A stretch of 64,000 bases of DNA from Bacteroidota bacterium (GTDB taxonomy: Bacteria; Bacteroidota; Bacteroidia; Cytophagales; Cyclobacteriaceae): the NCBI GenBank assembly GCA_018267275.1, contig JAFDYV010000002.1, positions 186,001 to 250,000 of the forward strand. The letters run 5' to 3'. A program made the position numbers and the translations under genes. Numbering within the stretch: position 1 is the first letter of the stretch; every line of letters starts with the position of its first letter. Under the pieces are notes generated by a model. It worked only from the letters and a program-made list of their open reading frames with translations. It was not told the origin of the DNA and ran no database searches. Below are positions 4,182-7,085 of the stretch, piece after piece.

Positions 4182-5245
4182 CTACCTACCGAACTGTCAG
4201 CATTAATACCGCATCGCCAAGCCCCGCACAAGCGAAAATTATGATTGTGTACACGGGCGGTACGTTCGGCATGGTGCGCAATAAAGAAGGCTCACTGATC
4301 CCATTTGACTTTGCATCGATTCTGGAACATTTGCCCACGCTCAAGAACTTATTTTTAGACCTGACGGTCGTGTCATTTGATGATCCCATCGATTCATCCA
4401 ATATTCAGCCTACGCATTGGCAAACGATTGGGCAAATTATCAGTGATCACTATCAGCAACATGATGGTTTTGTGGTGCTCCACGGTACAGATACAATGTC
4501 GTTCACAGCCTCTGCCCTCAGTTTCATGCTACAAGGCTTAGCCAAGCCTGTCATCTTTACGGGCGCGCAGTTGCCAATCAGCGAACCGCGGTCTGATGCG
4601 CGAGAGAACTTAATCACTTCATTGGAGATTGCAGCAGCGAAAAAAGACGGTCAACCGCTTGTGCCCGAAGTTTGCGTTTTTTTTGATTACGAGTTATTGA
4701 GGGGCAACCGTAGCAAGAAAGTAGAAAGCCGTCACTTCGATGCATTTGAATCCAGCAATTACCCTGTGCTGGCCAAGGCGGGTGTTGCTATCGACTATAA
4801 TTACAACGCCATTCATGTGCCGCGGGCGGGTCGTGTGTTCAAATTGAGGTCGGGGTTCAACAACCAAGTGGCAGTGCTGAAGTTTTTCCCAGGCATTAGC
4901 GAGGCGACTGTCTCGGCAGTGGTGGCCACGCCTGGCTTGCAAGCTTTGGTCATTGAAACCTTTGGTTCGGGCAATGCACCTGCATTGGGCTGGTTAAAGA
5001 AATTGCTGGCCAAAGCAATTGACCAAGGATTGTTGGTGTTGAACATAACGCAGTGTGGGGGGGGCAGGGTAGAGCAAGGAAAGTATGAGACCAGCCAATG
5101 GTTGAAGGAAATTGGTGTGATCAGTGGTGCCGACATGACGTTGGAGGCGGCCGTTACCAAGCTGATGATATTATTAAGTGAGCAGGGGCTGGAAAAAACC
5201 AAACAGTTAATAGGGAAGCCATTGGCTGGCGAGTTGACCGTATGA
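4178..5245 (+). CDS. ansA: Type I (cytoplasmic) L-asparaginase
   Basis: Hydrolyses L-asparagine to aspartate and ammonia. The two catalytic motifs are intact: YTGGTFGM with nucleophile Thr29 after a roughly 20-residue leader, and LHGTDTM with T104/D105. There is no signal peptide, which with the 355-aa length fits the type I cytoplasmic enzyme rather than the periplasmic type II. The start codon lies inside the tatD stop. The N-terminal 20 residues (TTYRTVSINTASPSPAQ) are longer than in the E. coli enzyme, so a later start is possible, but no good internal ATG precedes the catalytic loop except the Met at residue 22. Downstream the next feature is a broken tRNA-Ser end on the opposite strand. 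Confidence 0.92.
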   Translation: MTTYRTVSINTASPSPAQAKIMIVYTGGTFGMVRNKEGSLIPFDFASILEHLPTLKNLFLDLTVVSFDDPIDSSNIQPTHWQTIGQIISDHYQQHDGFVVLHGTDTMSFTASALSFMLQGLAKPVIFTGAQLPISEPRSDARENLITSLEIAAAKKDGQPLVPEVCVFFDYELLRGNRSKKVESRHFDAFESSNYPVLAKAGVAIDYNYNAIHVPRAGRVFKLRSGFNNQVAVLKFFPGISEATVSAVVATPGLQALVIETFGSGNAPALGWLKKLLAKAIDQGLLVLNITQCGGGRVEQGKYETSQWLKEIGVISGADMTLEAAVTKLMILLSEQGLEKTKQLIGKPLAGELTV

Positions 5246-5261
5246 TTTCTAAATAAAAACT

Positions 5262-5281
5262 GCGGAGAGGGCGGGATTCGA
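5262..5281 (-). pseudogene. 3' end fragment of tRNA-Ser
   Basis: Twenty bases identical to the 3' end of the intact tRNA-Ser (T-loop into acceptor stem, discriminator G and the next base). Upstream sequence then diverges into a palindrome, so this cannot fold as a tRNA. Confidence 0.8.
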
Positions 5282-5283
5282 CC

Positions 5284-5311
5284 TGCCCTCTGAAGCTTTA
5301 GCGAAGGAGGG
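5284..5311 (-). repeat. Palindrome A beside GIY-YIG gene 1
   Basis: Minus strand reads CCCTCCTTCGCTAAAG then CTTCAGAGGG. It shares the core CTCCTTCGC(T/C)AA(A/G)GC with the palindromes at 5637-5664 and 6018-6047 and is fused directly to the tRNA-Ser 3' fragment. Confidence 0.65.
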
Positions 5312-5341
5312 ATGCTCCGCGAAATTCCAGAGGCGTTCTCA

Positions 5342-5578
5342 CTATAAAAAATGCTTATTCCTAAATGCAATCCCGGAGCCAGACTTCAAGTACTTTTCAA
5401 AAGCGAAAGCATGTTCTTTGGTTGTAAAGGCGCAATAAAAGACTAATTCAACAGGAAGACCAGTTTTGGTGTATTCGACATGTCCGTGATTGTGTCTTTC
5501 TAACCTTTTGTGCAGGTCATTTGTGCAGCCCGTATAAAAAGTTTCATCAGCGCAGCGCAATATATATACGAACTGCAT
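5342..5578 (-). CDS. GIY-YIG domain nuclease-like protein 1
   Basis: A 78-aa single-domain GIY-YIG protein of the UPF0213/YhbQ type. It has VYILRC (GIY position), FYTGCTNDLHKRLERHN (YIG position followed by the conserved Arg) and a glutamate in FEKYLKSGSG. The ATG at 5578 is chosen over an upstream in-frame TTG, because the family begins M-x-x-V/A-Y-I/V-L. It is only distantly similar to the second GIY-YIG protein on the other side of the tRNA, so the two are not a recent duplication. It ends in LKSGSGIAFRN-type sequence common in these proteins. It probably cuts or binds DNA; a link to insertion at tRNA-Ser is inferred from position only. Confidence 0.8.
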   Translation of the reverse strand: MQFVYILRCADETFYTGCTNDLHKRLERHNHGHVEYTKTGLPVELVFYCAFTTKEHAFAFEKYLKSGSGIAFRNKHFL

Positions 5579-5636
5579 TATCAACTTGTATTAGTTTTTA
5601 GCGTAGGCTATTAGATTTTAATCTCGAATAACTTAA

Positions 5637-5664
5637 TCCTCCTTCGCCAAGGCTACGGAGGATC
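5637..5664. repeat. Palindrome B between tRNA-Ser and GIY-YIG gene 1
   Basis: Outer arms ATCCTCC/GGAGGAT pair perfectly over 7 bp around a core TTCGCCAAGGCTAC. It is the cleanest of three related palindromes in this locus and lies 3 nt beyond the tRNA-Ser 3' end, so it could also act in tRNA 3' processing or termination. Confidence 0.75.
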
Positions 5665-5667
5665 AAG

Positions 5668-5754
5668 CGGAGAGGGCGGGATTCGAACCCGCGATACCCT
5701 TTCGAGTATACACACTTTCCAGGCGTGCTCCTTCAACCACTCGGACACCTCTCC
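5668..5754 (-). tRNA. tRNA-Ser (anticodon GGA)
   Basis: Complete class II tRNA of 87 nt. Acceptor arms are GGAGAGG and CCTCTCC with discriminator G. The D arm contains GTCCGAGTGGTTGAAGGAG. The anticodon stem-loop is CACGC-CTGGAAA-GTGTG with anticodon GGA at 5718-5720, then a long variable arm, and a T arm GCGGG-TTCGAAT-CCCGC. The 3' CCA is not encoded. It would read UCC and UCU serine codons. It is flanked on both sides by GIY-YIG genes and by broken copies of its own ends. Confidence 0.96.
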
Positions 5755-5759
5755 AAAAT

Positions 5760-6002
5760 TCAAATTATTCCCTTTTCTTTCAAGTAAAGATAGCCGCTAA
5801 TGGACTTAAAGAACCTCTCTCGCCTTGTTGCCTCTGCTCGAGTTTGGTATTCCTCGAAATAATGCAATGCCCAAGGCCGCCTGCCTTTCGTATACTTTAC
5901 TTTTCCAGAATTGTGTTCATTAAGCCGTTTGCCTAAATCTTCGGTGCTACCATAGTAGTGAGTTTTGGTTGATTCACTTCTCAATACGTAGGCGTAGAAC
6001 AT
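5760..6002 (-). CDS. GIY-YIG domain nuclease-like protein 2
   Basis: An 80-aa single-domain GIY-YIG protein: YAYVLRS (GIY), [17 protein letters not shown] (YIG plus conserved Arg) and a C-terminal [19 protein letters not shown] with the likely catalytic Glu. The stop codon lies only 6 bp from the 5' end of the tRNA-Ser on the same strand, so tRNA and nuclease may share a transcript. Sequence identity with the other GIY-YIG protein of the locus is low (roughly one third by eye). Upstream of its start is a palindrome and then a 21-nt piece of tRNA-Ser 5' end. A homing-like role is plausible but unproven. Confidence 0.8.
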
Positions 6003-6017
6003 AACTTAAGTTTAAGT

Positions 6018-6047
6018 TGCTCCTTTGCCGAAGGCATCCCTTCGGGA
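6018..6047. repeat. Palindrome C upstream of GIY-YIG gene 2
   Basis: Minus strand CCGAAGG-GATG-CCTTCGG forms a 7-bp perfect hairpin with a 4-nt loop, continuing into CAAAGGAGC. It shares the CTCCTTYGCC core with the other two palindromes and joins directly to the tRNA-Ser 5' fragment. Confidence 0.7.
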
Positions 6048-6068
6048 CAACCACTCGGACACCTCTCC
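6048..6068 (-). pseudogene. 5' end fragment of tRNA-Ser
   Basis: Twenty-one bases identical to the first 21 nt of the intact tRNA-Ser (acceptor 5' arm through the D-loop). Four A/T-run flanking bases upstream also match. It then breaks into the palindrome instead of the D-arm 3' half. Confidence 0.82.
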
Positions 6069-6221
6069 AAAAAGGCCACAAAGAAATGGATTAATACGGT
6101 TTTAATCTACCCGCTCTGGCCTATTTCTGTCCTTTTTCTGTGACTTTATGCCTACTTAATGATTGTACTCAGCGCAGTGAAAGAAATAATCGATGGTTTT
6201 TTAGTTTTTTTTCCAAATTCT

Positions 6222-6252
6222 TGCGAGGAAATGGGCAAAACCTTTAATTTTG
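6222..6252 (+). promoter_or_regulatory. Promoter of the exbB operon
   Basis: TTG at 6222-6224, a 20-nt spacer and TAATTTTG at 6245-6252 match the Bacteroidota primary-sigma consensus (TTG-N19/20-TAnnTTTG). This leaves a leader of roughly 25 nt to the exbB ATG. Confidence 0.7.
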
Positions 6253-6284
6253 GCCACTTCAAGTTTTATCATAAACCTTAAACC

Positions 6285-7085
6285 ATGAAAAAATTAGTAA
6301 CGATTCTAGCTTTCTTCGGAGTGCTTGCATTTGGCGCTTCAAAAGCGTTGGCGCAAGCTGACTCTACACAGGCTGCTACCGAAGCAGCCGCACCTGCAGC
6401 ATCATCTGTGACTGAAACCCCTGCAACTGATGCAGCGGCTGCAGAAGAACAATCATTCCACCAAGTATTGAAGCAGAAGTTCATCGATGGAGGTCCTCCC
6501 TTTATGTGGCCGATTTTGATCGTGTTCATTTTGGGCTTGGCCATTGCCATCGAAAGAATTATTACCCTGAATATGGCAACCACCAACACCAAGAAGTTGT
6601 TGAGCCAGATTGAGGATGCGCTTGCAAAAGGTGGCGTGGAAGCAGCTAAAGACGTTACCAAAAATACCCGCGGCCCTGTGGCTTCTATCTTCACACAAGG
6701 TTTAATGCGCTCAGGCGAAGGTGTGGACATGGTTGAAAAATCAATCGTATCTTATGGTGGTGTTGAGATGGGTCGCCTTGAATCAGGTTTAATCTGGATT
6801 TCGTTGTGTATTTCACTCGGCCCTATGTTGGGATTCTTCGGTACTGTTGTGGGGATGGTGGACGCGTTTGAAGCCATCGAAGCTGCCGGAGATATCTCTC
6901 CTTCTATCGTTGCCGGTGGTATGAAAGTGGCCTTGATCACAACCGTAGGTGGTTTGATCGTGGGTATGGTGCTTCAAGTTTTGTACAACTATTGCGTATC
7001 TAAAATCGATAGCTTGGTAAACAGAATGGAAGACGCCTCTATTTCATTGATTGACATTTTGGTAAAGCACAAACTTTCTAAATAA
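6285..7085 (+). CDS. exbB: MotA/TolQ/ExbB proton channel family protein
   Basis: Inner-membrane proton-channel subunit that, with ExbD, turns the proton gradient into force on TonB- or TolA-like proteins. After a cleavable-looking signal peptide (cut near ALA|QAD, residue 23) comes an Ala/Thr/Glu-rich segment (about 24-56) and then TM1 at about 74-94 (PPFMWPILIVFILGLAIAIERI). The typical TolQ/ExbB TM2-TM3 block follows, with LGPMLGFFGTVVGMVDAF and GGMKVALITTVGGLIVGMVLQVLYN. At 266 aa it is longer than E. coli ExbB because of the N-terminal extension. It is first in a tight operon with a small membrane protein and two ExbD genes and probably powers TonB-dependent import such as that of the receptor encoded at 12697-14925. 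Confidence 0.92.
   Translation: MKKLVTILAFFGVLAFGASKALAQADSTQAATEAAAPAASSVTETPATDAAAAEEQSFHQVLKQKFIDGGPPFMWPILIVFILGLAIAIERIITLNMATTNTKKLLSQIEDALAKGGVEAAKDVTKNTRGPVASIFTQGLMRSGEGVDMVEKSIVSYGGVEMGRLESGLIWISLCISLGPMLGFFGTVVGMVDAFEAIEAAGDISPSIVAGGMKVALITTVGGLIVGMVLQVLYNYCVSKIDSLVNRMEDASISLIDILVKHKLSK

Follow-up and report, generated by a model that had tools for sequence, protein, structure and literature searches.

Small GIY-YIG nuclease genes on both sides of a tRNA-Ser gene in Bacteroidota point to candidate homing elements that rebuild their target

Phage T6 SegB is a free-standing GIY-YIG homing endonuclease which cuts inside tRNA genes, has a motif, RAWTSGAAC, that reads as the T-loop sequence on the opposite strand (GTTCSAWTY), and drives recombination and tandem amplification (PMC13096335). 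Tyrosine-integrase islands split a tRNA or tmRNA gene and restore it, with a displaced fragment marking the other end of the island (Islander, PMC4383910), and mobile group I introns with homing endonucleases are recorded for bacterial tRNA genes in a review (PMC3984707).

This study concerns a block within the window, i.e., the whole stretch of 64,000 nucleotides analysed here (G000:C7:186001-250000, from a genome of 4.25 Mb), where an intact tRNA-Ser(GGA) gene and two small GIY-YIG genes, GIY1 and GIY2, lie between displaced tRNA ends. SegB is the nearest precedent, as it likewise has a GIY-YIG domain and its gene adjoins tRNA genes; however, it is phage-borne, whereas the present elements are chromosomal, encode bare proteins of ~80 aa and form isotype-specific clades, and SegB is not known to have a regenerated target with a displaced tRNA end, nor a palindromic module (PMC13096335). 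A regenerated target plus a displaced fragment is shared with the integrase islands, but those span many kb with an integrase, whereas here the inserts are ~0.3-0.4 kb with a GIY-YIG nuclease and no integrase, occur as 5′-side as well as 3′-side types, and have palindromes within the fragment. Similar to the tRNA group I introns (PMC3984707), a homing-nuclease gene sits in a tRNA gene whose function is kept, but here function would be restored at the DNA level and not by splicing; an Rfam scan of 5100-6300 found no group I intron in the block, only the tRNA and two sub-threshold unrelated matches. Judged from sequence, these units appear to behave as homing elements with island-style target regeneration, with an incomplete membership in either family. 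We consider it likely that the block arose when target-regenerating GIY-YIG homing elements entered one essential tRNA-Ser(GGA) gene twice, independently of each other, with inserts of ~0.3-0.4 kb, GIY2 lying at the 5′ side and GIY1 at the 3′ side.

Read on the minus strand, the 5′ half of the block runs from the native promoter side (CCATTTCTTTGTGG, immediately upstream of the displaced 5′ fragment) through tRNA-Ser nt 1-21, a palindromic module and nt 22-28 to GIY2, and the 3′ half runs from the intact tRNA-Ser(GGA) through a hairpin, GIY1 and a hairpin module to tRNA nt 69-88 (Table 1). The first-pass annotation had described an intact tRNA-Ser(GGA) flanked by two distinct GIY-YIG genes, which ARAGORN, Rfam and PF01541 confirmed, and bounded by the two ends of a second tRNA-Ser whose middle is missing. 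These ends are indeed complementary and exact, comprising nt 1-21 and the last 20 nt, but the 3′ piece starts at nt 69 of the 88-nt tRNA, and part of the middle persists, as the 5′ remnant continues with nt 22-28 and the 3′ remnant carries a weak trace of about nt 27-36 ahead of its own hairpin module. Two exact direct repeats underlie the fragments, one of 25 nt (5734-5758/6048-6072, tRNA nt 1-21 plus 4 nt) and one of 20 nt (5262-5281/5667-5686, tRNA nt 69-88), and the fragments score 42 and 40, where shuffled controls reach ~20 at most. The window copy is the sole full tRNA-Ser(GGA) match of its genome, the next full-length match being 72% identical, and it is 100% identical to those of the congeners G023 and G035. 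The inserts hold no ORFs besides the GIY genes and no integrase, and for GIY1 the more probable start codon is ATG 5578, with TTG 5584 as the alternative. The hairpin after the intact tRNA resembles those behind tRNA-Ser in G030 and G025 and behind tmRNA-GIY loci, while the module class at the 3′ fragment, whose junction (GGGT^TCGAAT) lies in the T-loop, recurs at the same junction in G025 and at related junctions in G030 and the tmRNA loci.

Table 1. Features of the tRNA-Ser(GGA) block, with positions numbered in the window
Feature	Position	Strand	Basis
Displaced 5′ fragment, original tRNA-Ser(GGA) nt 1-21	6048..6068	-	Exact repeat; upstream flank as at the intact gene in congeners
22-nt palindromic module TCCCGAAGGGATGCCTTCGGCA, between tRNA nt 21 and 22 of the 5′ fragment	6026..6047	-	
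tRNA nt 22-28 (AAGGAGC), resuming past the module	6019..6025	-	Sequence reading
GIY2, 80-aa GIY-YIG nuclease, 5′-side (tRNA-Ser) clade	5760..6002	-	PF01541; tree; AlphaFold
Intact tRNA-Ser(GGA), 88 nt	5667..5754	-	ARAGORN; Rfam tRNA 56 bits
Element-type hairpin after the intact tRNA (CCTCCGTAGCC...GCGAAGGAGG)	5638..5661	-	
GIY1, ~78-aa GIY-YIG nuclease, 3′-side tRNA-Ser(GGA)/tmRNA clade	5342..5578	-	PF01541; tree
Hairpin module CCCTCCTTCGCTAAAGCTTCAGAGGGCAGG at the 3′ fragment boundary	5282..5311	-	
Displaced 3′ fragment, original tRNA-Ser(GGA) nt 69-88	5262..5281	-	Exact repeat; junction common to other species

Both proteins match Pfam PF01541 (E 2.9e-14 for GIY1 and 1.1e-14 for GIY2), and in 42 sequences Y5, Y16, R26, H30 and K66 are invariant and E62 is near-invariant, which places them in the GIY-YIG superfamily. 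The AlphaFold model of GIY2 has a pLDDT of 96.9, and the nearest solved structures by sequence and fold are those of the UPF0213 family (1zg2, 1ywl) and the SLX1 structure-specific nucleases, from which the GIY elements differ in their tRNA link and putative mobility. I-TevI is a weaker match, and unlike I-TevI these proteins are bare ~80-aa GIY domains with no separate DNA-binding domain. A codon comparison places the ORFs under purifying selection, with pN far below pS, synonymous change saturated and amino-acid change limited. A PHROGs scan returned no family for the GIY protein, and searches of phages and plasmids yielded distant GIY proteins only (<60% identity) and no vehicle.

The association with tRNA genes extends far beyond the window. 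Five of the seven small GIY genes of the window genome adjoin a tRNA or tRNA fragment (Ser twice, Asp, Pro and His), and in a genus sample of 112 small-GIY loci from 41 congeners, with the tRNA context read by locus sampling, a tRNA lies within 250 nt at 77 loci, on the same strand at every one of them (77/77), covering 13 isotypes (Ala, Arg, Asn, Asp, Glu, Gly, His, Leu, Met, Phe, Pro, Ser and Val). Two further loci have the GIY gene directly downstream of tmRNA (L088:558-1500 and L061:1035-1799), with the junction GGGT^TCGAATCCC and a hairpin of the type found at tRNA-Ser(GGA); at the one locus of full length a displaced tmRNA 3′ end comes after the GIY gene, and the other begins the same fragment before the contig ends. 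About a third of the small-GIY loci have no tRNA link, and these are mostly members of a clade of longer proteins or lie at contig ends. Most of the genomes are drafts, and some contexts are lost from view where a contig stops at a tRNA locus. In other Bacteroidota, 23 of the 29 top matches have a tRNA on their own strand no more than 150 nt away, accompanied by fragments that score above the usual shuffle level, and at least one close GIY match occurs in 161 of 248 sampled genomes. Relatives of GIY2 in named genomes lie within 400 nt of a tRNA in 66 of 80 cases; this tRNA is always on the strand of the GIY gene, and in 58 cases it is a tRNA-Ser. The relatives are spread over Bacteroidota, Ignavibacteriota, Balneolota, Calditrichota, Chlorobiota, Verrucomicrobiota, one Joergenseniibacteriota genome and two records without phylum, many of these genomes being metagenome bins in which single phylum assignments may be wrong. 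The separate clade of longer GIY-YIG proteins, of ~97-145 aa (L001, L005, L054, L060 and others; about 23 members in the tree), occurs in one or two copies per genome with no tRNA near, and possibly has a different function.

The strong purifying selection, the orientation of the GIY genes along with the tRNA and the strong, partly covarying hairpins kept by the fragments would all suit a domesticated host function or a toxin-antidote pair, wherein the GIY protein cuts tRNA at the RNA level and the hairpin-bearing fragment serves as decoy or antidote. We regard this as unlikely, for the genes are patchily present, relatives have empty sites, outer copies decay, and the polarity of the fragments described below is not predicted by it; such a role could nevertheless exist alongside insertion.

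Comparison of empty and occupied sites supports the first-pass reading that an insertion into the tRNA gene left an intact copy restored. In many congeners, for example G023, the same two genes, asparaginase and exbB, flank one unbroken tRNA-Ser(GGA) gene and a GIY gene is lacking, and hence the unbroken single tRNA-Ser for which the annotation had proposed a search of relatives is present at the same site. The conserved CCATTTCTTTGTGG... flank abuts the intact gene in congeners and the 5′ fragment in the window, where the end of GIY2 lies directly ahead of the intact tRNA; therefore, the 5′ fragment is the original 5′ end of the gene. The congener G030 has the intact tRNA, a decayed GIY1 relative and the 3′ fragment, the 5′ fragment being absent, and the two halves of the window block are thus separable. 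At tRNA-Val(UAC), eight species (G004, G063, G023, G036, G079, G003, G012 and G065) are empty, with promoter, tRNA and native terminator contiguous (..tcaagccgttac..gtaacggctttt and variants), whereas in the occupied site of G035 the same promoter and tRNA are followed by a different terminator (cctcag..ctgagg), a GIY gene, a fragment and then the native terminator, an arrangement repeated in G022 with a second, deleted copy. The insert of G035 measures ~336 nt, and its flanks, once joined, align with the empty sites at 155-166 identities over 204-207 columns. The gene is thus present in some alleles and absent from homologous ones at both tRNA-Ser(GGA) and tRNA-Val(UAC), as is the case for homing endonuclease genes. 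Single loci do not separate gain from precise loss: since recombination between both tRNA ends would excise the element precisely, a site that is now empty may once have been occupied. An apparently split tRNA-Ser in G005 proved to be a scaffold gap of N. The tRNA-Ser(GGA) of G030 (L035) has the variable arm TGGCGCCTTCAGCGCCA instead of the TATACTCGAAAGGGTAT of other congeners, the remainder being identical.

The same comparison bears on the main alternative of the annotation, a tRNA-GIY tandem array grown by duplication whose outer tRNA copies then decayed. Arrays of 2-5 GIY copies are common, those of G314, G030 and G016 being stacks of near-identical copies at equal spacing, and some fragments amount to an almost complete tRNA into which hairpins are inserted (tRNA-Ala, L070/L107), as an array would predict. 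However, duplication of the native unit would not put a foreign terminator behind the intact tRNA and the native one behind the fragment, so that the tRNA-Val sites contradict this alternative; moreover, the fragments retain the end that insertion predicts, and the junctions are constant within a clade. Duplication accounts for the copy number of the stacks but not for the first insertion, and the array is, in our judgement, quite improbable. In eight arrays the proximal and outermost copies are not in the same condition, and in seven of these it is the outermost copy that is broken and the proximal one that is intact; such an order would follow if each new insertion went into the intact tRNA and moved the older ones outward. 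The intact tRNA remains a potential target, which the frequent tandem stacks may reflect.

The polarity of the fragments follows the side of the nuclease gene: with GIY downstream of the tRNA, the displaced tRNA 3′ end lies beyond GIY, and with GIY upstream, the displaced 5′ end lies before it. At 3′-type loci the outer remnant scores above 100 shuffles in 49 of 54 cases, reaching the tRNA 3′ end in 40 and comprising the 5′ end only in none, and at 5′-type loci it does so in 20 of 23, starting at nt 1 in 16, with one exception; a fragment was undetected at 8 of the 77 tRNA-linked loci. Inner-side matches at 16 3′-type loci, mostly starting at nt 1-3, resemble additional 5′ fragments or what is left of stacked insertions. 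A tree of 125 GIY domains, drawn from a short alignment with many forks open, sorts by tRNA isotype (30 changes versus a shuffled mean of 82, with none of 200 shuffles as low). GIY1 falls with GIYs on the 3′ side of tRNA-Ser(GGA) and of tmRNA, and GIY2 with those on the 5′ side of tRNA-Ser(UGA), in a clade with L111 and L145; each kind also stands by itself at other loci, with relatives of GIY1 downstream of tRNA-Ser(GGA) and tmRNA and relatives of GIY2 upstream of tRNA-Ser(UGA). The breakpoints lie in tRNA loops and are constant within a clade and the same across species, namely GGGT^TCGAAT for Ser(GGA) and equally for tmRNA, GGTTC^GATTCC for Leu(CAA), GTTCA^ATTCC for Phe and TTCGA^GTCC for Leu(GAG/CAG), while among GIY2 relatives the core TTG^AA is common to the window (GGTTG^AAGG) and tRNA-Ser(UGA) (TCTTG^AAAA). 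At 13 of the 16 3′-type loci whose tRNA carries the T-loop motif GTTCSAWTY, the motif is destroyed in the fragment.

These assignments count against the supposition of the annotation, made on the grounds that both fragments are complementary ends of one tRNA, that one ~770-bp unit carrying both nucleases and the tRNA between them was inserted once. The two genes belong to different clades, each half is found alone elsewhere with its own GIY clade, and G030 carries the 3′ insertion only; therefore two one-gene insertions are the better account, and the single unit is very improbable. To our knowledge, 5′-end fragments with palindromes are not the usual signature of an integrase, which counts against a derivation from integrase islands. 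That the loci are integrase-driven tRNA islands shrunk to a GIY gene between both attachment sites is scarcely credible, since, beyond the shared signature of an intact tRNA with a displaced fragment (Islander, PMC4383910), the inserts are ~0.3-0.4 kb without integrase, the GIY gene is their constant part across isotypes and phyla, and the junction is predicted by the GIY clade.

In nearly all fragments the junction or its vicinity holds one palindrome or two, which are purely inserted or take the place of a tRNA arm, and the module class tends to track the GIY clade. Allowing up to three mismatches, the window module TCCCGAAGGGATGCCTTCGGCA has no second copy in its genome, and homologues with one or two mismatches lie in the tRNA-Ser(UGA) 5′ fragments of G005 and G059, the G005 module TCCCAAAGGGATGCCTTTGGCA showing a paired G-C to A-T change. 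In folding against shuffles, several modules (His, Phe, Leu and Arg) reach z of -3.3 to -4.5, while the two of the window (-1.5 and -1.0) do not stand out. A genome-wide REP family as the source of the hairpins received a mixed answer, TCCCG..CGGGA not being enriched in the window genome (22 versus a control of 25), whereas CCTGCC..GGCAGG is enriched across the genus and dispersed (up to 26 per genome versus almost none in the reversed control), many of its copies lying far from tRNAs. Related palindromes are dispersed through many of the congener genomes. We suggest, as the least certain part of the account, that the module is an element end that would also spoil the leftover target site. Palindromes occur near tRNA remnants in other settings as well. 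In a tRNA-Leu(UAA)/tRNA-Gly(GCC) cluster of the window genome (L229, G000:C9:365000-366800), three copies of TCCCGCTTTTAGCGGGA lie in or near tRNA-like remnants with no GIY gene, and the whole genome has four, these and one at L007. At the tRNA-Ser(GGA) of G007 (L025), a palindromic sequence of ~150 bp with no GIY gene separates the intact tRNA from a 3′ fragment, and is perhaps a non-autonomous or decayed element.

Based on these comparisons, which themselves show the insertion, the regenerated tRNA, the polarity, the target specificity and constant breakpoints of the clades and the spread over phyla, we propose that each of the two insertions brought an element with just one small nuclease gene. 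To one side of this gene lies a palindromic module, and to the other a duplicate of whichever tRNA end is located past the point of insertion. First, the nuclease would cut an unoccupied tRNA gene at a clade-specific site, GIY1 in the T-loop and GIY2 near nt 21/22, GIY-YIG homing enzymes being, as the annotation held, the likely agent. The break would be repaired on an element-carrying DNA template, presumably by homologous recombination, and the element thereby copied in. The tRNA would then be rebuilt from its own remaining part and the element-borne end, so that the host survives, and the original end would stay outside the nuclease gene as a displaced fragment. In the fragment the site is interrupted by the module, which may protect it from further cutting, while the rebuilt tRNA keeps its sequence. 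The elements would also move by horizontal transfer.

We lean towards regarding these units as an undescribed class of chromosomal mobile elements, i.e., one-gene GIY-YIG units of ~0.35 kb, every lineage of which is specialised for a given tRNA or tmRNA and for either its 5′ or its 3′ side; they would rebuild the tRNA on insertion, tag the remaining fragment with a palindromic module, stack repeatedly at the same tRNA, and be spread through Bacteroidota and neighbouring phyla. No account of such chromosomal elements was found in the open-access literature in PMC, and there is a fair chance that specialists would call them a new class. If this is right, it would account for the several small 'GIY-YIG nuclease family' genes present in so many genomes of Bacteroidota, it would exemplify a minimal answer to homing into an essential gene without an intron, namely carrying the missing end, and it would provide a naturally occurring collection of small candidate nucleases for tRNA genes, their targets being isotype-specific. 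Hairpin-bearing tRNA fragments are also open to mis-annotation as odd tRNAs: ARAGORN miscalls such remnants of tRNA-Asp and tRNA-Val (L004:1278-1352; L097:951-1019 and 1278-1346) as tRNA-Ala(CGC), tRNA-Met and tRNA-Arg.
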